DNA from: Kutzneria sp. 744
Lineage (GTDB): Bacteria; Actinomycetota; Actinomycetes; Mycobacteriales; Pseudonocardiaceae
Assembly: GCF_000568255.1 (NCBI RefSeq)
Contig: NZ_KK037166.1
Coordinates: 2,181,857 to 2,227,006, forward strand
Direction of reading: 5' to 3'
Length of the DNA stretch: 45,150 nt
Below are positions 3,021 to 28,819 of this stretch, in pieces (the stretch's first letter is position 1; every line of letters begins with the position of its first letter). The translations under genes and the position numbers were made by a program. The notes under the pieces are model-generated. The model was not told the origin of the DNA. It worked only from the letters and a program-made list of their open reading frames with translations, and made no database searches.

Positions 3021-3387
3021 CGGTCGTGGTCGGGTAGGCCGGCGACGACTGCGGCTCGTGCGTCTTGGTCGTGGTGGTCTCCGTCGGGTACGTCGTGGTC
3101 CTGGTCGTCTCCGTCGGGTACGTCGTGGTTGAGCTCGGCGAGGCGAGCTTGGTCGTCGTCGTCGTCGGGTAGGCCGGCGACGACGTCGGCTCGGCGGTCT
3201 TGGTGGTCTCCGTCGGCTGCGACGTCACCGGGATCGACGTGGCCGGGCTGGTGGTCGTGGTCGGCGACGGCGAGCCGCCGGACGCCGAGGTCGCCGCCAT
3301 GGCGGCCGTGCCGGCCCCCAGCACGCCGACGGCGACCGCCGCCACCACGATGGCCTTCCGGGACCGCAGCACAGCGGGGATACGCAT
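3007..3387 (-). CDS. Secreted Thr/Ser/Pro-rich repetitive protein
   Basis: This is a 126-residue protein starting at ATG 3387, chosen because GAGAGGA lies about 6 nt upstream; an ATG 39 nt further up lacks such a site. Residues ~10-32 form a hydrophobic signal or anchor segment (AIVVAAVAVGVLGAGTAAMA). The rest is a low-complexity extracellular tail with repeats of YPTETT(T/R)TT and SSPAYPTTT. Such tails act as cell-wall-spanning spacers or glycosylated stalks. No catalytic domain is visible. It lies 79 bp downstream of a one-TM protein with a similar Thr-rich tail, itself downstream of an ECF sigma factor, so the three may form one operon. The function is unknown. Confidence 0.7.
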   Translation of the reverse strand: MRIPAVLRSRKAIVVAAVAVGVLGAGTAAMAATSASGGSPSPTTTTSPATSIPVTSQPTETTKTAEPTSSPAYPTTTTTKLASPSSTTTYPTETTRTTTYPTETTTTKTHEPQSSPAYPTTTVKNH

Positions 3388-3466: not shown

Positions 3467-3841
3467 TCAGCGCTCGATGGTCGTCACCGTGGTCACGGTC
3501 GTCTTGGTCGTGCTGGCCGGCGCGCTCGTGTCGTTCTGGTTGTGCTTGGTGGTCGTGGTCGGCGTCGTGACCACTGTGGACGTCGGCGACGGCAACGTCG
3601 TGGTGGACACGGGGACGGCCGGCGGCAGCTGCTGCACCGGCGGCGAATCGCCGCGCTGCAACAACACCAGGCTCACCACGACGACCCCCAGCACGGCCGC
3701 GGCCGTCAACACCGGCGCGAACCGGCGCAGCGGCCGCCGGGTCGAGGCGCGGGCCCGGATGGCCGGGCCGGACAGGGTGGAGTGTACCCGGTCGGCCCGA
3801 GCCGCCAGCAGCCGCCGCAGCTCGTCCTCCTCGTCACTCAT
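3467..3841 (-). CDS. Single-TM Thr-rich protein coupled to the ECF sigma gene (possible anti-sigma partner)
   Basis: This is a 124-residue protein. The N-terminal cytoplasmic part is charged (DEEDELRRLLAARADRVHS), a single TM helix follows at about residues 43-60 (VLTAAAVLGVVVVSLVLL), and the tail is an extracellular Thr-rich stretch. The ATG at 3841 overlaps the end of the sigma gene by 8 nt, so the two are translationally coupled. A small membrane protein coupled to an ECF sigma factor often has anti-sigma function. No zinc anti-sigma HxxxCxxC motif is present, so that role is inference only. Confidence 0.7.
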   Translation of the reverse strand: MSDEEDELRRLLAARADRVHSTLSGPAIRARASTRRPLRRFAPVLTAAAVLGVVVVSLVLLQRGDSPPVQQLPPAVPVSTTTLPSPTSTVVTTPTTTTKHNQNDTSAPASTTKTTVTTVTTIER

Positions 3842-4319
3842 GGCCCCTCCACACCCGTTCCGACGACCCCAGCACCGACCGCAGCGCCGCCAGGCCCCGG
3901 CTGACGTGGGCCCGAACGGTGCCCTCCCGGCAGCCCAGCACCGAGGCGATCTCCGTGTCGGTGAGGTCCTCGTAATAACGCAGCACGACCGCCGCTCGTT
4001 GCTGCCGGGGCAGTTTTCGCAGCTCACGGGCCAGGCGCTGGTCCGGCTCGTCCCAGCCGACCTCGACCCCGACCTCCGGGACCTCGGCCGTGAACCTGAT
4101 GTTGCGGGTGCTCCAGCGCCGCCGCCACGACAGGAACTCGTTGGTCACGGCCCGCCGCACATAGGCGTGGCGGTTGCCCTCCAGCGTCTCCCAGCGCGGG
4201 AAGACCCGGATCAGCACCTCCTGCACCAGGTCCTCGGCGTCGCCCTGCCCGCCACACAACAGCGTGGCGTAGCGGACCAGCGCCTGCTGGTGCTCATGCA
4301 CGAACTCGTCGAAGGACAT
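3834..4319 (-). CDS. ECF-type RNA polymerase sigma factor (SigE-family, sigma-70)
   Basis: This 161-residue protein has the two-domain layout of ECF sigma factors. Region 2 spans residues ~5-70 (FDEFVHEHQQALVRYA, GDAEDLVQEVL, FLSWRRR) and region 4 spans ~105-155 (LPRQQRAAVVLRYYEDLTD, EIASVLGCREGTVRAHVSRG). It matches the actinobacterial SigE-like subfamily in length and motifs. It directs RNA polymerase to a small regulon. No good Shine-Dalgarno precedes ATG 4319; the array of 77-bp units ends about 35 nt upstream. The downstream one-TM protein overlaps its stop. Confidence 0.92.
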   Translation of the reverse strand: MSFDEFVHEHQQALVRYATLLCGGQGDAEDLVQEVLIRVFPRWETLEGNRHAYVRRAVTNEFLSWRRRWSTRNIRFTAEVPEVGVEVGWDEPDQRLARELRKLPRQQRAAVVLRYYEDLTDTEIASVLGCREGTVRAHVSRGLAALRSVLGSSERVWRGHE

Positions 4320-4355
4320 CGCACCGCTAGACGCCGCAGGACCCCGATGCGTTGC

Positions 4356-4436
4356 TCACAGAACCTCCTCGCTAGCGCTCGGAGTATCTGCGAGCAGGCT
4401 CGCCGTGCTCGATGGCTCGCTCGCAAGCTCGCTCAC
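4356..4436 (-). CDS. Mini-ORF unit 4 (26 codons, Gly-to-Ser variant)
   Basis: Last unit of the array. One base differs (4379) and changes the TPGASEE stretch to TPSASEE. After its TGA a further GTG reading runs only 10 codons to TAG at 4327-4329. Coupling is therefore lost before the ECF sigma start at 4319. Confidence 0.38.
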   Translation of the reverse strand: MSELASEPSSTASLLADTPSASEEVL

Positions 4437-4513
4437 AGAACCTCCTCGCTAGCGCCCGGAGTATCTGCGAGCAGGCTCGCCGTGCTCGATGGCTCGCTCG
4501 CAAGCTCGCTCAC
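4433..4513 (-). CDS. Mini-ORF unit 3 (26 codons)
   Basis: Identical in sequence to units 1 and 2, with GTGA overlaps on both sides. Three exact copies imply recent tandem amplification or homogenisation. Confidence 0.38.
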   Translation of the reverse strand: MSELASEPSSTASLLADTPGASEEVL

Positions 4514-4590
4514 AGAACCTCCTCGCTAGCGCCCGGAGTATCTGCGAGCAGGCTCGCCGTGCTCGATGGCTCGCTCGCAAGCTCGCTCAC
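4510..4590 (-). CDS. Mini-ORF unit 2 (26 codons)
   Basis: Identical in sequence to unit 1 and shifted by 77 bp. Its GTG overlaps the TGA of unit 1, and its SD-like GAGGAGG is supplied by the end of unit 1. Translation of the array would proceed by termination-reinitiation at each GTGA. Confidence 0.38.
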   Translation of the reverse strand: MSELASEPSSTASLLADTPGASEEVL

Positions 4591-4667
4591 AGAACCTCCT
4601 CGCTAGCGCCCGGAGTATCTGCGAGCAGGCTCGCCGTGCTCGATGGCTCGCTCGCAAGCTCGCTCAC
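4587..4667 (-). CDS. Mini-ORF unit 1 (26 codons), coupled to hrpA stop
   Basis: GTG at 4667-4665 overlaps the hrpA TGA (GTGA). The frame encodes 26 residues beginning MSELASEP and ending GASEEVL, and its TGA overlaps the next unit's GTG. GAGGAGG lies about 4 nt before that next GTG, an excellent ribosome-binding context inside every unit. Nothing shows that the peptide is made or functional. The support is the exact 81-nt ORF length against the 77-nt period, and the same architecture at a second locus. I do not recognise the peptide. Confidence 0.4.
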   Translation of the reverse strand: MSELASEPSSTASLLADTPGASEEVL

Positions 4668-7600
4668 AGCTCGTCCATCGCCTTGTAGATCCGCTTCTCG
4701 GAGACCGGGTAGGCGGTGCCCAGGGTCTGCGCGAAGTAGCTGACCCGCAGCTCCTGGATCATCCAGCCGATCGTGCGCAGCGGCTTCTCCACCGGCTCGC
4801 CCGGTGGCACCGCGTCCAGCAGCGTCCGGTACTCGGCGTTGATCTCGGCGATCTCCTCGGTGCGCTGCACGTCCCGCTGCGGGTTCTCCGGCAGCTTCTC
4901 CAGCCGCCGCTCGATCGCCTTGAGGTAGCGCTCGACGTCCGCCAGCCGCTGGTAGCCGACCTCGGCCGCGAAATCGGCGTGGACCAGGCCGCGCAGCTGG
5001 GCCCGGATGTCCTTGACCGAGGCGTCCGGGGCGAACTTGGCCGCCGCCAGCTGCCGCTCCACGTCCTGCGCGGCGTTGAGGACCCGCCGCACCCGGTTGA
5101 CCACGTCCAGCACGGTCTCGTTCAGCCCGGCCCGGGCCCGGGCCAGCAGCTTCTCGAAGCCGGCCTGGTCGAACACGGGCCCGCCGCCGTCGGCGACGAG
5201 CTTGTCCACGGCCGTGGCGATGCAGTCGTTGAGCAGCGCCGGCACGCCGCCGTGCGGATTGCGGCTCAGGGTCAGCTTGGCGTCGTTGGTGAGGCTGCGG
5301 ACGACCATCTTCACCGGCGAGGGCAGCTGGAGCAGCAGCAGGCGCCGGGTGCCCAGCACCATGGCCGCCCGCTGCTGGGCGGCGCTGTCCAGCAGCTTCA
5401 CGTCCACGTGGTCGCCGCGGTCGACCAGCGACGGATACGTGGTGACCTCGTAGCCGGCGACGGCCTGCCGGTGCGTGCGCGGCACCGTGCCGAAGTCCCA
5501 GGTCGTGACGCCCGTGCGCTCGATGTCGTTGGGGGCGGCGGACAGGGCGGCGCGCATGGTGGCCCGCAGGTCCTCCTTGATCGCCGCCAGGTTCTTGCCC
5601 TCGGCCAGGGTCCGGTCCCGCTCGTCGACCACGTGGAAGGTGGTCTTGAGGTGGTCGGGCACCTGGTCCAGCTGCCACGCCTCGCGCGGGATCGTCACGC
5701 CGGACAACGCGCCCAGCTCGCGTTCCACCGACTCCAGCACGTGCTGGTCGTTCGGGCCCAGACGGTCCACCACGGCCTTGGCGAAGGTCGGGGCGGGCAC
5801 GAAGTTGCGGCGGATCTGCTTGGGCAGCGACTTGATCAGCGAGGTGACCAGCTCCAGCCGCAGGCCCGGGATCTGCCAGGCCAGGCCGTCGCCGTCGACC
5901 TGCCCGAGCACCGGCAACGGCACCCGCACGGTAACGCCGTCGGCGCGCTGCCCCGGCTCGAACCGGTAGGTCAGCGGCAGCTCGACGCCGCCCTGGGTCC
6001 AGTGGTCCGGGTAGTCGGCCGCGGTGACGCCGTCCGCATGGGAGTTGATCAGCATGTCCGGGTCGAACGTCAGCAGCTCCGGGTCTTCCCGGCGGGTCTT
6101 CTTCCACCAGGTGTCGAAGTGCCGCACCGAAACGACTTCCGCGCCGACCCGCTTGTCGTAGAAGTCGAACAGGGTCTCGTCGTCGACCTTGATGTTGCGC
6201 CGGCGGACCCGGTCCTCCAGCTTCTCCACGTCGTCGAGCAGCTTGCGGTTGTGGTGGAAGAACTGGTGGCTGGTGCGCCACTCGCCCTCGACCAGGGCGT
6301 GCCGGATGAACAGCTCGCGGCTCACCTCGGGGTCGATGCGGCCGTAGTTGATCCGCCGCGCGGCGACGATCGGCAGGCCGTACAGGGTGACCTTCTCGGT
6401 GGCGATCACCGCGCCCTGCTTGGCTTCCCAGTGCGGTTCGCTGTAGTTGCGCTTGACCAGGTGCGCGCCGAGCTTCTCGGCCCACTCCGGCTCGATCTTG
6501 GCCACCACCCGGGCCCACAGCCGGGAGGTCTCCACCAGTTCGGCGGCCATCACCCACTGCGGCTGCTGGCGGGACAGCGCGGAGCCGGGGAAGATCGCGA
6601 ACTTGGCGCCGCGCGCGCCGAGGTACTCGCTGGGTCCCTTGCGCGGCACGCCCTTCGTGACGACGTCCTTCATGCCCAGGTGCGACAGCAGGCCGGTCAG
6701 CAGCGACACGTGGATGCCGCGGGTGTCGATCTCGCCGCCGTTGAGCGACACGCCCTGGCCCTTGACCACCTGGCGCAGCTGGGCGTAGATGTCCTGCCAC
6801 TCGCGGACCCGCAGGTAGTTCAGGAACTCCGCCCGGCACATCTTGCGGAACTGGTTGGAGGACAGCTCTTTCTGCTGCTCCCGCAGGTAGTTCCACAGGT
6901 TCAGGAAGCTGATGAAGTCGCTGTCCGGGTCCCGGAACCGGGCGTGCTGCTGCTGGGCCTGCTCCTGCTGCTCGGTCGGCCGCTCGCGCGGGTCCTGAAT
7001 GGACAGTGCGGCGGCGATCACCATGACCTCGCGCACACAGCCGTTCTCCTCGGCGGCGACGACCATGCGGGCCAGCCGGGGGTCGACCGGCAGCTGGGCC
7101 AGCCGGCGGCCGATGGCCGTCAGCTTGTCCTTCTCGAGGGCGCCCAGCTCCTGCAGCAGGCCGATGCCGTCGTTGATGTTGCGGCGGTCCGGCGGGTCGA
7201 TGAACGGGAAGGCCGCGATGTCGCCGAGGCCGGCGGCGATCATCTGGAGGATGACCGAGGCCAGGTTGGTGCGCAGGATCTCGGGATCGGTGAACTCCGG
7301 CCTGCTCTCGAAGTCCTCCTCCGAGTAGAGCCGGATGCAGATGCCCTCGGAGACCCGGCCGCAGCGGCCCTTGCGTTGGTTGGCCGAGGCCTGCGAGATG
7401 GCCTCGATCGGCAGCCGCTGCACCTTGAGCCGGTGGCTGTAGCGGGAGATGCGGGCGTTGCCCGGGTCGATCACGTACTTGATGCCGGGCACCGTCAGGG
7501 AGGTCTCGGCGACGTTGGTGGACAGCACGACGCGGCGGCCGGTGTGGCGCTGGAACACGCGATGCTGCTCGCCGACCGAGAGCCGGGCGTACAGGGGCAG

Positions 7601-8596
7601 GATCTCGGTGTTCCTCAGGTCCTGTTTGGACAGTGCGTCCGCGGTGTCGCGGATCTCCCGCTCACCGGACAGGAACACCAGGATGTCGCCCGGGCCCTCG
7701 GCCTGGAGCTCGTCCACCGCGTCGAGAATGGCCTGCACCTGGTCGCGGTCCGGGTCGGCGTCCGGGTCCTCGGGGTCGATGATCGGCCGGTAGCGGGTCT
7801 CCACCGGGTAGGTGCGGCCCGAGACCTCGACGATCGGGGCGTCGCCGAAGTGCCGGGAGAACCGCTCCGGGTCGATCGTGGCCGAGGTGATGATCACCTT
7901 GAGGTCGGGGCGGCGCGGCAGCAGCTGCTTGACGTAGCCCATGATGAAGTCGATGTTCAGGCTGCGCTCGTGCGCCTCGTCGATGATCAGCGTGTCGTAG
8001 CGGGACAGCAGCCGGTCGCTCTGGATCTCGGCCAGCAGGATGCCGTCGGTCATGAGCTTGACCAGCGTCTCGTCGCCGACCTGGTCGGTGAAGCGGACCT
8101 TGTAGCCCACCACCTGGCCCAGCTCGGTGTGCAGCTCCTCGGCCACCCGCTCGGCCACCGTGCGGGCGGCGATCCGGCGCGGCTGGGTGTGACCTATCAC
8201 GCCGCGCACGCCCCGGCCCAGCTCCAGGCAGATCTTGGGCAGCTGGGTCGTCTTGCCGGAGCCGGTCTCGCCGGCCACGATCACGACCTGGTTGTCGCGG
8301 ATCACGTCCAGGATGTCCTGCCGGCGCTGGCTGACCGGCAGTTCCTCCGGGTAGCTGATGCGCGGCACCGCCGCCACCCGGGCGGCCAGCTTGGCCTGCG
8401 CGGCCAGCACCTCGTCGTCGATCTGCTCCAGCGCGGCGCGGCGCTTCGCCTCGTCACGGATCTTGTTGGCGCCGTCGACGCGCCGACGCAGCCGATGCTC
8501 GTCGCGCAGCATCAGCTGGGGCAGTTCGAAGGGGGCAGCAGTCACCGGTAGCGATCCCATTTGGTTTCTCAGGGTAGTCACCCGCGGTTCGGACAC
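4664..8596 (-). CDS. hrpA: ATP-dependent RNA helicase HrpA (DEAH box)
   Basis: At 1310 residues it has the usual length of bacterial HrpA, a DEAH-box RNA helicase acting on structured RNA or ribosomes. Walker A GETGSGKTTQLP lies at about residues 109-120, with DEAHERS near 207, motif III SAT (ITSATIDPERF) and motif VI QRKGRCGRVSEG. The helicase-associated HA2/OB region and the long DUF3418 C-terminal domain follow. The GTG at 8596 is the longest start; ATG at 8560 is an alternative, and neither has a convincing SD (GGAGGGG lies ~16 nt before the GTG). It is divergent from the next gene by 59 bp. Its TGA is shared with the first 77-bp unit. Confidence 0.96.
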   Translation of the reverse strand: MSEPRVTTLRNQMGSLPVTAAPFELPQLMLRDEHRLRRRVDGANKIRDEAKRRAALEQIDDEVLAAQAKLAARVAAVPRISYPEELPVSQRRQDILDVIRDNQVVIVAGETGSGKTTQLPKICLELGRGVRGVIGHTQPRRIAARTVAERVAEELHTELGQVVGYKVRFTDQVGDETLVKLMTDGILLAEIQSDRLLSRYDTLIIDEAHERSLNIDFIMGYVKQLLPRRPDLKVIITSATIDPERFSRHFGDAPIVEVSGRTYPVETRYRPIIDPEDPDADPDRDQVQAILDAVDELQAEGPGDILVFLSGEREIRDTADALSKQDLRNTEILPLYARLSVGEQHRVFQRHTGRRVVLSTNVAETSLTVPGIKYVIDPGNARISRYSHRLKVQRLPIEAISQASANQRKGRCGRVSEGICIRLYSEEDFESRPEFTDPEILRTNLASVILQMIAAGLGDIAAFPFIDPPDRRNINDGIGLLQELGALEKDKLTAIGRRLAQLPVDPRLARMVVAAEENGCVREVMVIAAALSIQDPRERPTEQQEQAQQQHARFRDPDSDFISFLNLWNYLREQQKELSSNQFRKMCRAEFLNYLRVREWQDIYAQLRQVVKGQGVSLNGGEIDTRGIHVSLLTGLLSHLGMKDVVTKGVPRKGPSEYLGARGAKFAIFPGSALSRQQPQWVMAAELVETSRLWARVVAKIEPEWAEKLGAHLVKRNYSEPHWEAKQGAVIATEKVTLYGLPIVAARRINYGRIDPEVSRELFIRHALVEGEWRTSHQFFHHNRKLLDDVEKLEDRVRRRNIKVDDETLFDFYDKRVGAEVVSVRHFDTWWKKTRREDPELLTFDPDMLINSHADGVTAADYPDHWTQGGVELPLTYRFEPGQRADGVTVRVPLPVLGQVDGDGLAWQIPGLRLELVTSLIKSLPKQIRRNFVPAPTFAKAVVDRLGPNDQHVLESVERELGALSGVTIPREAWQLDQVPDHLKTTFHVVDERDRTLAEGKNLAAIKEDLRATMRAALSAAPNDIERTGVTTWDFGTVPRTHRQAVAGYEVTTYPSLVDRGDHVDVKLLDSAAQQRAAMVLGTRRLLLLQLPSPVKMVVRSLTNDAKLTLSRNPHGGVPALLNDCIATAVDKLVADGGGPVFDQAGFEKLLARARAGLNETVLDVVNRVRRVLNAAQDVERQLAAAKFAPDASVKDIRAQLRGLVHADFAAEVGYQRLADVERYLKAIERRLEKLPENPQRDVQRTEEIAEINAEYRTLLDAVPPGEPVEKPLRTIGWMIQELRVSYFAQTLGTAYPVSEKRIYKAMDEL

Positions 8597-12848: not shown

Positions 12849-13821
12849 CCGTCCTCATCTTGGCGCGGGACTTCGACCCGACCGCGGATCGAATGGTTGG
12901 CGCGCTGGAAGAACGTGGAGCGGAGGTCTTCCGTCTCAACACCGCTTGGTTCCCTGGCCAAGTCAGGGTTGCCGCTGAGCTGGACGACGGTCGGTGGCGT
13001 GGCGTCGTGCACACGCCACACGGATGTCTCGAGCTGGAAGCGGTGCATGCCGTCTGGTATCGCTCGCCGGAGGCGTACCGCATGCCGACGCAGCTGACCG
13101 CTGCTGAGGCTCAGCACGCCCGCGTCGAGGCCAAATACGGACTCGGCGGTGTGTTGGCATCGCTTCCGGCGGTGTGTTGGCATCGCTTCCGGCGTTGTGG
13201 TGCAACCATCCGAGCCGCGTGGCGGACGCCGCGTACAAGCCGGTCCAACTCGTCCGCGCGGCGCGTTGCGGTCTCGCCGTACCGCGGACGGTGATCACCA
13301 ACGACCCGGTCCCCGCGAGAACGTTCACCCGAAGCGGTGCGACCGTGACCAAGCTGGTCGGAGGCATGGCCATTGACGAGGAGGGCGTCCGCAAGAACGT
13401 GTACACCAGTCGAGTGACCGAGGCGGACCTCGCGGACCTGCGCGGCATCGAACACACCACGCACTTGTTCCAGCGGTGGGTGCCCAAGGCCCGCGAAGCG
13501 CGGGTGATCGTGATCGGCGAGCACATCTCCGCAGCGGCGATCACGGCCGGCACTGCGGCCACGCACGTCGACTATCGAATCGACTATTCGGCCCTGTCGT
13601 ACGCGCCGGTAACGCCGCCGGCTGAGGTGGTGTCGGCGACCCGGCTGCTGATGGCCGAGTTCGGACTGGTGTACGGGGCGCTGGACTTCGTCATCACACC
13701 ATCCGGTGAGTGGGTGCTGTTGGAGATCAATCCCACCGGCCAGTATGGGTTCGTGGAGAACGCCACTGGTGCGCCGTTGACGGCTCAGCTCGCAGACCTG
13801 CTGGCGGGGGCGGGCCGGTGA
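12845..13821 (+). pseudogene. tgmB: ATP-grasp RiPP maturase (TgmB-like) disrupted by a 23-bp tandem duplication
   Basis: ATG 12845 overlaps the tgmA stop (ATGA). The N-terminal half (TVLILARDFDPTADRMV, AVWYRSPEAYRMP, AKYGLGGVLASLPA) runs out of frame after 13170. The C-terminal half resumes in another frame with GVLASLPALWCNHPSRVADA, YKPVQLVRAARCGLAVPRT and the ATP-grasp metal/ATP site GALDFVITPSGEWVLLEINP. The break is an exact 23-bp tandem duplication (13144-13194); removing one copy restores a 317-residue enzyme of normal family length. The enzyme would phosphorylate Asp/Glu side chains of TgmA to form macrolactones or macrolactams. As written it is non-functional unless the duplication is lost. 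Confidence 0.9.
13144..13194 (+). repeat. 23-bp tandem duplication inside tgmB
   Basis: Positions 13144-13166 are repeated at 13167-13189, and the match continues 5 bp further to 13194. Because 23 is not a multiple of three, the second copy shifts the frame by two bases. The protein motif LGGVLASLPA is encoded once in each frame. Confidence 0.97.
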
Positions 13822-27579: not shown

Positions 27580-27966
27580 GTGGAGGTGCGCATCGCCGCA
27601 TCGCCCGCGCACCTCTCGGTCGTCCGGGCGGTCGCCGCCGACCTGGCGATGCGCGCCGACTTCACGTTGGACGCGATCTCCGATCTCAAGATGGCCGTGG
27701 ACGAGGCCTGCTCGGAGCTGATCTCCCGCTCCGTGCCCGACGGGGAGCTGGTCTGCCGCTTCGCCGTCGAGTCCGACCAGATCCACTTCTCCGCCGAGTC
27801 CCGCACCGGCTCCACCCAGCCGCCCAGCCGGGAGAGCTTCGGCTGGCGGGTGCTGACCGCGCTCACCGACGCCGTCAACACCTGGGTCGTGCCCGGCCCC
27901 GACGGCGCCCACGTGCTGCGGTTCGATCTGTTGAAGAAGCGAGCCGACGACGTGGTGGGCCTGTGA
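27580..27966 (+). CDS. RsbW-like anti-sigma kinase (HATPase)
   Basis: This 128-residue GHKL-type kinase and anti-sigma factor has VVRAVAADLAMRADF and the N-box ISDLKMAVDEACSELI (~residues 28-45). The C-terminal SFGWRVLTALTDAV contains the glycine box region. It would bind SigF and phosphorylate the STAS protein. GTG 27580 has only a weak SD. A better start, ATG 27488 with GGGGGAAG just upstream, lies in another frame; its reading (MAEVDVDRTEVTGASTS) would join the kinase frame if one base were restored near 27535-27545. A one-base deletion is therefore likely. Its TGA overlaps the mini-ORF GTG. Confidence 0.82.
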   Translation: MEVRIAASPAHLSVVRAVAADLAMRADFTLDAISDLKMAVDEACSELISRSVPDGELVCRFAVESDQIHFSAESRTGSTQPPSRESFGWRVLTALTDAVNTWVVPGPDGAHVLRFDLLKKRADDVVGL

Positions 27967-28043
27967 CCGAGCTTGCGAGGGAACCATTCAACACAGGGAC
28001 CTGGGTCGCAGACCCGCCGAACGCCAGCGAGGTGGGCCTGTGA
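27963..28043 (+). CDS. Mini-ORF unit between rsbW and sigF (26 codons)
   Basis: GTG 27963 overlaps the RsbW TGA and its TGA (28041-28043) overlaps the sigF GTG 28040. It is the same 81-nt, double-GTGA architecture as the array at 4356-4667. The peptide begins MTELAREP and ends NASEVGL. It shares 14 of 26 positions with the array peptide, in the pattern M(S/T)ELA(S/R)EP...AD(T/P)P(G/N)ASE..L. No indels separate the two versions. Expression and function are unproven. Confidence 0.4.
   Translation: MTELAREPFNTGTWVADPPNASEVGL
27964..28040 (+). repeat. Single diverged 77-bp unit between rsbW and sigF
   Basis: It matches the 4354-4661 unit at 56 of 77 aligned positions without gaps. It is bounded by a 15-bp direct repeat, GGTGGGCCTGTGACC, at 27954-27968 and 28031-28045, exactly 77 bp apart. 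Removing one copy would fuse the RsbW stop directly to the sigF GTG (GTGA). The hairpin core covaries with the array: GAGC/GCTC there, GACC/GGTC here. Confidence 0.85.
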
Positions 28044-28819
28044 CCCAGTCCTCAGAACGCGCGTCCAGTGACTACGCGCACCTGGATCCGGTGTTGGTCG
28101 AACTGGCCGAGACACCCGTCGGCGACCCCCGTCGGACCGAGCTGCGCGACCGCCTGGTCACCGAGTTCCTGCCGGTGGCCCAGCACATCGCCCGCCGCTT
28201 CGGGCAGCGCGGCGAGCCGCACGACGACCTCGTTCAGGTCGCCACCGTCGGCCTGATCAGCGCCATCGACCGCTTCGACCCCACACGCGGCAGCGACTTC
28301 CTGTCCTTCGCCGTGCCCACGATCATGGGCGAGGTGCGCCGGCACTTCCGTGACACCAGCTGGTCAGTGCGCGTGCCCCGGCGGCTCAAGGAGCTGCACC
28401 TGGCCATCACCGGCGCCACCAACGAGCTCTCCCAGCACCTGGGCCGCGCCCCCACACCCAGCGAGCTCGCCACCCATCTCGGCATCAGCAAGGACGAGGT
28501 GTACGAGGGCCTGGAGGCGTCCAACGCCTACCGCAGCTCCTCCCTCGACGAGCTCCTCGTCGGCACCGACAAGTCCGTGTCCCTGGGCGACGCCCTCGGC
28601 GACGACGACCCCGAGCTCATGGGCGTCGAGAACCGTGAGGCCCTGCAACCCCTTCTGCAGCAGCTGCCCGAGCGGGAGCGCACCATCATCCTGCTCCGCT
28701 TCTTCGGCAACCTCACCCAGACCCAGATCGCCGACCGCATCGGCATCTCCCAGATGCACGTCTCCCGGCTGCTGGCCCGCACCCTCGTCGACCTCCGCAA
28801 GGGCCTGCTCAGCGAATAA
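28040..28819 (+). CDS. sigF: SigF/SigB-family RNA polymerase sigma factor
   Basis: This 259-residue group 3 sigma factor has region 2 (LVTEFLPVAQHIARRFGQRG, DDLVQVATVGLISAIDRFDP, FLSFAVPTIMGEVRRHFRD), region 3 (SVRVPRRLKELHLAI, PTPSELATHLGISKDEV) and region 4 (LPERERTIILLRFFGNLTQT, ADRIGISQMHVSRLLARTL). It matches the SigB/SigF stress and sporulation group of actinobacteria. It is preceded by its STAS and RsbW partners. GTG 28040 overlaps the mini-ORF stop, and its SD-like GAGGTGG is supplied by the 77-bp unit. Confidence 0.94.
   Translation: MTQSSERASSDYAHLDPVLVELAETPVGDPRRTELRDRLVTEFLPVAQHIARRFGQRGEPHDDLVQVATVGLISAIDRFDPTRGSDFLSFAVPTIMGEVRRHFRDTSWSVRVPRRLKELHLAITGATNELSQHLGRAPTPSELATHLGISKDEVYEGLEASNAYRSSSLDELLVGTDKSVSLGDALGDDDPELMGVENREALQPLLQQLPERERTIILLRFFGNLTQTQIADRIGISQMHVSRLLARTLVDLRKGLLSE

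Follow-up and report, generated by a model that had tools for sequence, protein, structure and literature searches.

A dispersed 77-bp element at stop and start codons in Kutzneria sp. 744 resembles mycobacterial interspersed repetitive units in design

The array behind hrpA and its dispersed copies

The stretch of Kutzneria sp. 744 DNA that was analysed (45,150 nucleotides, referred to as the window) contains four short reading frames, nearly identical and each overlapping the next, between a helicase gene and a sigma-factor gene. The hrpA gene, the array, and the sigma-factor gene are all on the minus strand, with the following features in the order of translation.

4664..8596, minus: upstream gene, hrpA-type DEAH helicase of 1310 amino acids; its TGA stop lies within the first GTGA
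4587..4667, minus: unit 1, adjoining hrpA; 26-codon mini-ORF VSELASEPSSTASLLADTPGASEEVL; its GTG overlaps the hrpA TGA
4510..4590, minus: unit 2, same sequence as unit 1; 4-nt GTGA overlap on both sides
4433..4513, minus: unit 3, same sequence as units 1 and 2
4356..4436, minus: unit 4, one base different (codon 20 is S, not G); GTGA at its end
4327..4359, minus: 10-codon ORF (GTG...TAG), opened by the last GTGA of the array
3834..4319, minus: next gene, sigma-70 family factor (regions 2 and 4)

An earlier note on this DNA had proposed a four-unit tandem array of 77-bp repeats, each a 26-codon mini-ORF joined to its neighbours by GTGA overlaps. The array was confirmed at 4356-4667 (minus strand) as four 81-nt mini-ORFs with a period of 77, and Tandem Repeats Finder reported the interval 4354-4669 with a 77-bp period, 4.1 copies, and 99% matches. 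The sequence also bore out the described signals, a GTG over the preceding TGA and a GAGGAGG four bases ahead of the next GTG, and the repeat length does follow from the coupling, as an 81-nt ORF minus a 4-nt overlap gives 77. Units 2 to 4 appeared in the ORF listing as 26-amino-acid GTG ORFs, and unit 1 was merged there into a longer frame. The hrpA product has the Pfam domains DEAD, Helicase_C, HA2_C, OB_NTP_bind, and DUF3418. At the other end, the ATG of the sigma-factor gene is 7 nt past the end of the 10-codon ORF, and in three relatives that lack the array, GTGAGCAAC already comes after hrpA. The window array stands at the hrpA stop and not in a plain overlap of two genes, the 10-codon ORF coming next.

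The array is not a product of chance, because a profile built from 41 units finds 77 or more copies of its unit in the 11.65-Mb, one-contig source genome (E value 1e-4). The 43 arrays analysed (38 fetched loci plus the window) have one to four units each and fall into three subfamilies (A, B, and C) that differ mainly in the middle of the unit. Among 58 distinct units of this genome with a terminal DTGA, 48 measure 81 nt including the overlap, and the two bases after DTGA are mostly set by subfamily. A plain minisatellite, expanded by replication slippage at one locus and without mobility, would fit the identity of window units 1 to 3. That reading is refuted by copies dispersed over many loci and by clean empty sites in relatives (see below), and it has practically no chance of being correct.

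A second copy in the window stands between two genes on the plus strand.

27580..27966, plus: upstream gene, HATPase_c_2, anti-sigma-factor-like; stop within GTGA (domain scan done on the frame from 27472)
27963..28043, plus: single copy, subfamily B (VTELAREPFNTGTWVADPPNASEVGL)
28040..28819, plus: downstream gene, sigma factor (regions 2, 3, and 4); GTG start in the terminal GTGA

This copy (27963-28043) fits exactly between the anti-sigma-like ATPase gene and the sigma-factor gene, with a GTGA overlap with both. Tandem Repeats Finder also listed two other repeats in the window, one with a 30-bp unit at 3061-3129, within a Thr/Pro-rich ORF, and one with a 23-bp unit at 13144-13199.

Sense insertion at DTGA

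The position of the copies was evaluated with a local check for an open coding frame with the actinobacterial GC pattern, which replaced an earlier gene caller that was too crude and had placed 20 of the 43 arrays 'inside' genes or as 'intergenic'. In this automatic test 39 of the 43 arrays were at an in-frame stop and/or start, all in sense, which answers the earlier question of whether copies sit at stop/start overlaps: 20 had both signals, 14 had just the start, and 5 had just the stop, leaving 4 with neither. An in-frame coding stop was found at 25/43 arrays versus 26/679 of the remaining DTGASC sites in that DNA, and an opposite-strand coding frame abutted none of the 43. At 14 further sites of the same genome, which stand outside the 43-array test and were judged by eye from frame lengths and GC, the upstream frame fit in 11 and the downstream frame in 12. 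The upstream misfits were L323 (open, with an atypical GC phase), L324 (wrong phase), and L330 (an earlier stop); downstream, one end had been misassigned by the script and one was N-masked. The base after DTGA was the same on the left and right in 32/41 of the first set (shuffled mean, 18.9) and in 5 of the 9 new sites that were readable, so that a selection of targets by element type through this base, strongly indicated by the first set, was not borne out by the new one.

Junctions without the element were recovered by searching the flanks of 13 sites in five relatives of the same genus and aligning them. Among 52 orthologous junctions, 39 were without the element, 12 were occupied, and 1 had a remnant. 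Exactly four bases separated the flanks at 24 of the 39 empty junctions (DTGA at 23 and ATGG at 1), and the flanks of the other 15 aligned with small offsets. The hrpA site was empty in three of the four relatives compared (GAGCT-GTGA-GCAAC). In relative G005, the hrpA site (L265) has a 12-nt remnant of the left end of the element after GTGA, and no array; this remnant resembles a deletion or excision scar. The bare DTGA at empty orthologous junctions is direct evidence that a multiple of 77 bp was inserted at a DTGA.

At most of the 13 compared sites the element has a patchy distribution among the relatives, and the copy number that the earlier note wanted counted in related strains does vary: one site has 4/1/0 units and another has 3/1/0. 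Another idea, that base 1 (the D) is the old target base, agreed with the empty relatives at L067 and L071 and was contradicted at L062 and L065 (G here versus A in the empty site) and at L072 (A versus G).

A mostly kept frame and covarying base pairs

With two chance pattern matches left out, 53 of 62 distinct units from this genome and 26 of 31 from relatives have a mini-ORF that stops at the terminal TGA. The 26-codon frame that the earlier note expected is therefore kept in most units, but several copies are broken. Fourteen units do not stop at the terminal TGA; one is a remnant, and the other 13 were translated. A Pfam scan covered 8 of these 13 (L048 was left out), and 7 of the 8 run on into a Pfam domain, L052 being the one with no Pfam match. 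In one run-on, the domain (DUF3145) starts only at residue 97. The remaining domain matches, in each of which an element mini-ORF continues in frame into the downstream gene, are as follows.

L051:2014-2517, minus: fusion to a hydrogenase maturation protease
L073:2534-3346, plus: fusion to a CoA transferase
L064:740-2422, plus: fusion to an ABC ATPase, first genome
L259:1447-3081, plus: fusion to an ABC ATPase at the equivalent site of another genome
L291:91-648, minus: fusion to a protein of the YgbB/IspF type
L042:2521-3411, plus: fusion to an ABC permease

These are predicted proteins with an element-derived N terminus, and such fusions illustrate a route from mobile DNA to the N terminus of ordinary proteins. 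The frame of the broken units ends after 37 to 38 codons at L295 and L296 and extends for 97 codons at L048, and these three do not evidently run into a gene. At L065:2571-2804 (minus strand), the first two units of a three-unit array fail to end at their own TGA, giving one 78-codon ORF with three in-frame repeats.

A kept frame could mean that the 26-residue peptide itself has a function, as a regulator or a repeated small protein, and that the junction position serves only its expression. Most units keep an open, in-frame ORF together with a start and a Shine-Dalgarno-like stretch, and no subfamily B unit contains an internal stop, compared with 2.9 expected under a random null (P = 0.04). 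The substitutions do not agree with this. When changed codons in the 81-nt units of the three subfamilies were compared with a random-position null, the synonymous fraction was highest in subfamily B (0.280 versus 0.232 ± 0.029), and was 0.253 versus 0.225 ± 0.040 in a second subfamily and 0.228 versus 0.229 ± 0.040 in the remaining one. Purifying selection on the peptide was not detectable, because synonymous changes among copies are without clear excess. Thus, the coding signal anticipated across copies was found in the kept frame but not in the substitutions. The middles encoded by the subfamilies are also quite different, and the 39 of 52 orthologous junctions that lack the element weigh against a needed product as well. 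A functional peptide therefore seems very unlikely. As the frame is mostly kept and synonymous changes are not in excess, the frame and the signals count for more than the peptide.

The signals are embedded in two hairpins. The 5' hairpin contains the start codon, and the 3' hairpin covers the exit Shine-Dalgarno. In 41 units, 83.5% of cells were paired for the pairs i+j=23 and i+j=125, compared to 26 to 43% in slid controls with the partner moved by 1 to 3 columns, a comparison that favours the scored structure since this was derived from folds of the same 41 units. Eight pairs of the two hairpins have changes on both sides. The first base of the start codon is paired with base 22 (12 A-T, 62 G-C, and 2 G-T) in units scored as first in their array, with two chance matches removed; the two G-T cases are an internal unit scored as first and the L265 remnant. 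The pair was A-T in six and G-C in four of ten new sites. In a genus from another bacterial family, the source of a second family of elements, there were 17 A-T, 8 G-C, and 1 G-T. Units inside arrays may break this rule, with G-T in 3 of 17. All 41 aligned units have the same bases at positions 7, 8, 15, and 16 of the 5' hairpin, where GA faces GA.

The case for the hairpins is carried by covariation, because single-unit folding energies are unremarkable. Folds of four single units were not unusually stable, either as RNA (z = -1.6, -0.4, -1.35, and -0.26) or as DNA (z = 0.6, 1.3, -0.6, and 0.3), and the pairs shared by the 41 units in RNAalifold were weak. Two other structures were rejected. 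A central hairpin did not reach significance when treated as a single structure (mean z, -0.8), and a competing helix (3-11/37-45) had one covarying pair.

REP/BIME sequences, which come with RAYT transposases, are likewise short hairpin elements scattered between genes, and in these a conserved GTAG/GGAG tetranucleotide precedes the palindrome. The element could be a REP-like palindrome moved on single-stranded hairpins by a Y1 (RAYT/IS200-type) transposase, the open frame being what selection has left over. The two hairpins have related cores near both ends, and DTGA is fixed at both ends in a single orientation, as such a mechanism would have it. The difference is that the unit found here is itself an open reading frame, placed at stop/start codons and lying in sense in each of the 43 tested arrays; frame keeping and stop/start position are not known to be part of the REP design. 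The search for a mobiliser covered the Y1 family (PF01797), which had no match in the source genome and turned up once, as a partial match, in 13 genomes. A Y1 transposase was rejected as the mobiliser for its absence from the source genome, and a REP-like origin is quite unlikely.

MIRU-like design and a proposed translational relay

The closest known design is that of the mycobacterial interspersed repetitive units (MIRUs), reportedly first described by Supply et al. in 1997. The earlier note had stated that no described element works in this way, which is wrong, as the excerpted texts on mycobacterial MIRUs describe just such a design (PMC4473831, PMC12548453). According to these excerpts, MIRUs are small ORFs with ends that overlap the neighbouring ORFs, whose orientation they share (PMC4473831), and they appear mobile and couple translation by a -4-nt spacing (PMC12548453); the unit length is given as 46 to 101 bp in an excerpt of PMC3914561. 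The same design, a small mobile ORF overlapping both neighbours with -4-nt coupling, emerges from PMC4213456 taken together with PMC12548453, PMC3914561, and PMC4473831.

The likeness extends to most features. Like MIRUs, the element occurs as dispersed copies, some in tandem and variable in number (at least 77 matches; 4/1/0 and 3/1/0 units). Its 77-bp unit falls within the length range excerpted from PMC3914561, and as a small ORF it overlaps both neighbours, 20 of 43 arrays being at a stop and a start. It has the orientation of the neighbouring genes, with no opposite-strand coding frame abutting the 43 arrays, and is inserted at a DTGA stop/start, as seen in the 24 four-base empty junctions (DTGA in 23). 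There are also differences. MIRUs lack dyad symmetry by their description in the excerpt of PMC4473831, whereas two hairpins with compensatory changes are present here. The bases after DTGA vary in the fetched MIRUs and match on both sides (counts below), whereas here they are mostly bound to the subfamily.

For comparison, at least 80 mycobacterial loci were fetched with a MIRU motif; 78 of the 80 listed were from Mycobacterium or Mycolicibacterium and 2 were from an actinobacterial MAG. In arrays from the listed loci, a TGA was at the left end in 62/82 and a DTGA at the right end in 63/82. Where both ends were available (n = 52), the base after DTGA was equal on both sides in 45 arrays (shuffled mean, 20), the second base in 30 (shuffled mean, 16.7), and base 1 in 39 (shuffled mean, 33.8; inside the shuffle range), counts in which some related species and neighbouring units are included more than once. 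Among single units from the listed loci, the D-to-D distance preserved the frame in 29/39, and the ORF ended at the terminal TGA in 27/39.

The profile of the Kutzneria element had three hits at E ≤ 10 in the 80 listed mycobacterial loci, none of them at a MIRU. The profile of the second family had 29 hits there, with a best E value of 0.37, and 23 were near the MIRU core (reversed control, 1/4). In the consensus alignment to MIRU, the scores of four units were reached by 732, 1311, 1905, and 273 of 2000 shuffles, and the sole resemblance to the MIRU sequence was an 11-nt stretch like GAGCGNAGCGA. The element appears to work like a MIRU, but neither the profiles nor the consensus alignment find a significant similarity that would establish common descent. 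Such elements outside mycobacteria were not found in the open-access literature at the level of its listings.

These results suggest, with a probability of about 0.85, that the element is small, mobile, and non-autonomous and acts as a translational relay like the mycobacterial MIRUs. It is a MIRU-like relay in another actinobacterial lineage, of a design already known. The cassette idea of the earlier note is well supported by the sense copies at stop/start codons, the mostly kept frame, and the bare DTGA at empty sites. The element would enter a DTGA at the stop and/or start codon of a gene, in sense, so that its 26-codon ORF would now start from the Shine-Dalgarno and DTG that the site already had. 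A ribosome ending the upstream gene at the TGA would reinitiate at the overlapping DTG and open the hairpins of the element. It would then end at the TGA of the element and reinitiate at the next DTG by means of the element's own Shine-Dalgarno. Because this Shine-Dalgarno and the terminal DTGA would restart the next ORF, ribosomes would be handed on, the operon would stay working if translation proceeds in this way, and the insertion would be nearly silent. As an 81-nt ORF with a 4-nt overlap makes a 77-bp insertion, copies could stack in tandem, and tandem duplication would keep the coupling rule. The hairpins on the start codon and the exit Shine-Dalgarno probably block reinitiation unless a ribosome arrives from upstream, a gating that would make coupling strict. 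Mobilisation would be in trans, by a recombinase, and the role is presumably mainly neutral or selfish. Short upstream ORFs that deliver ribosomes by coupling follow the same relay logic in an excerpt of PMC12548453; those ORFs are native, whereas here the ORF was created by a dispersed insertion.

Relay steps might instead lose ribosomes, so that copy number would adaptively set the ratio of two proteins. Unit number does vary between relatives (4/1/0 and 3/1/0), and a sigma-factor gene follows both sites in the window, but two such sites may be a coincidence, and most of the 13 compared sites carry the element in some genomes and lack it in others. We regard adaptive tuning as unlikely. A broader conjecture than the relay itself, which is no less doubtful than tuning, is that the hairpins serve twice, as single-stranded DNA sites at which a recombinase links a DTGASC core with a 77-nt circle, and as an mRNA gate hiding the start codon and exit Shine-Dalgarno. 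The design, with MIRUs as one branch, might then represent a class of mobile DNA general to actinobacteria that targets the translation signal itself and also feeds N-terminal extensions to genes.

MIRU loci are widely used for tuberculosis strain typing, and in the excerpted literature their movement and their effect on coupled translation are not settled. A family with no detectable sequence relation to MIRUs, present in dozens of copies and showing both clean empty sites and hairpins that covary, provides a non-pathogen system in other actinobacteria for measuring insertion, the strength of coupling, and the effects of copy number.

With one unit as the query, matches were found in 16 of 59 relatives, the source genome not being counted, and the profile matched 18 of the 59 other genomes of the host's family at an E value of 1e-4. 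At an E value of 0.01, it matched 28 of 41 genomes of the genus that supplied the second family. A pattern search across the phylum matched 5 of 396 genomes, with a pattern too narrow to measure distribution; the source genome accounted for 27 matches, three of the five matching genomes look like chance, and a genome of the same order (G331, L305) has a stretch resembling a real unit, with GTGA at its end. Plasmid and phage collections gave no blastn match with one unit as the query in each. A variant of 70 to 72 nt, with the common 5' half and a different 3' end (GACGAAGGAGGC(G/A)GCGTGA), was present at L068, L073, and L312/L328.
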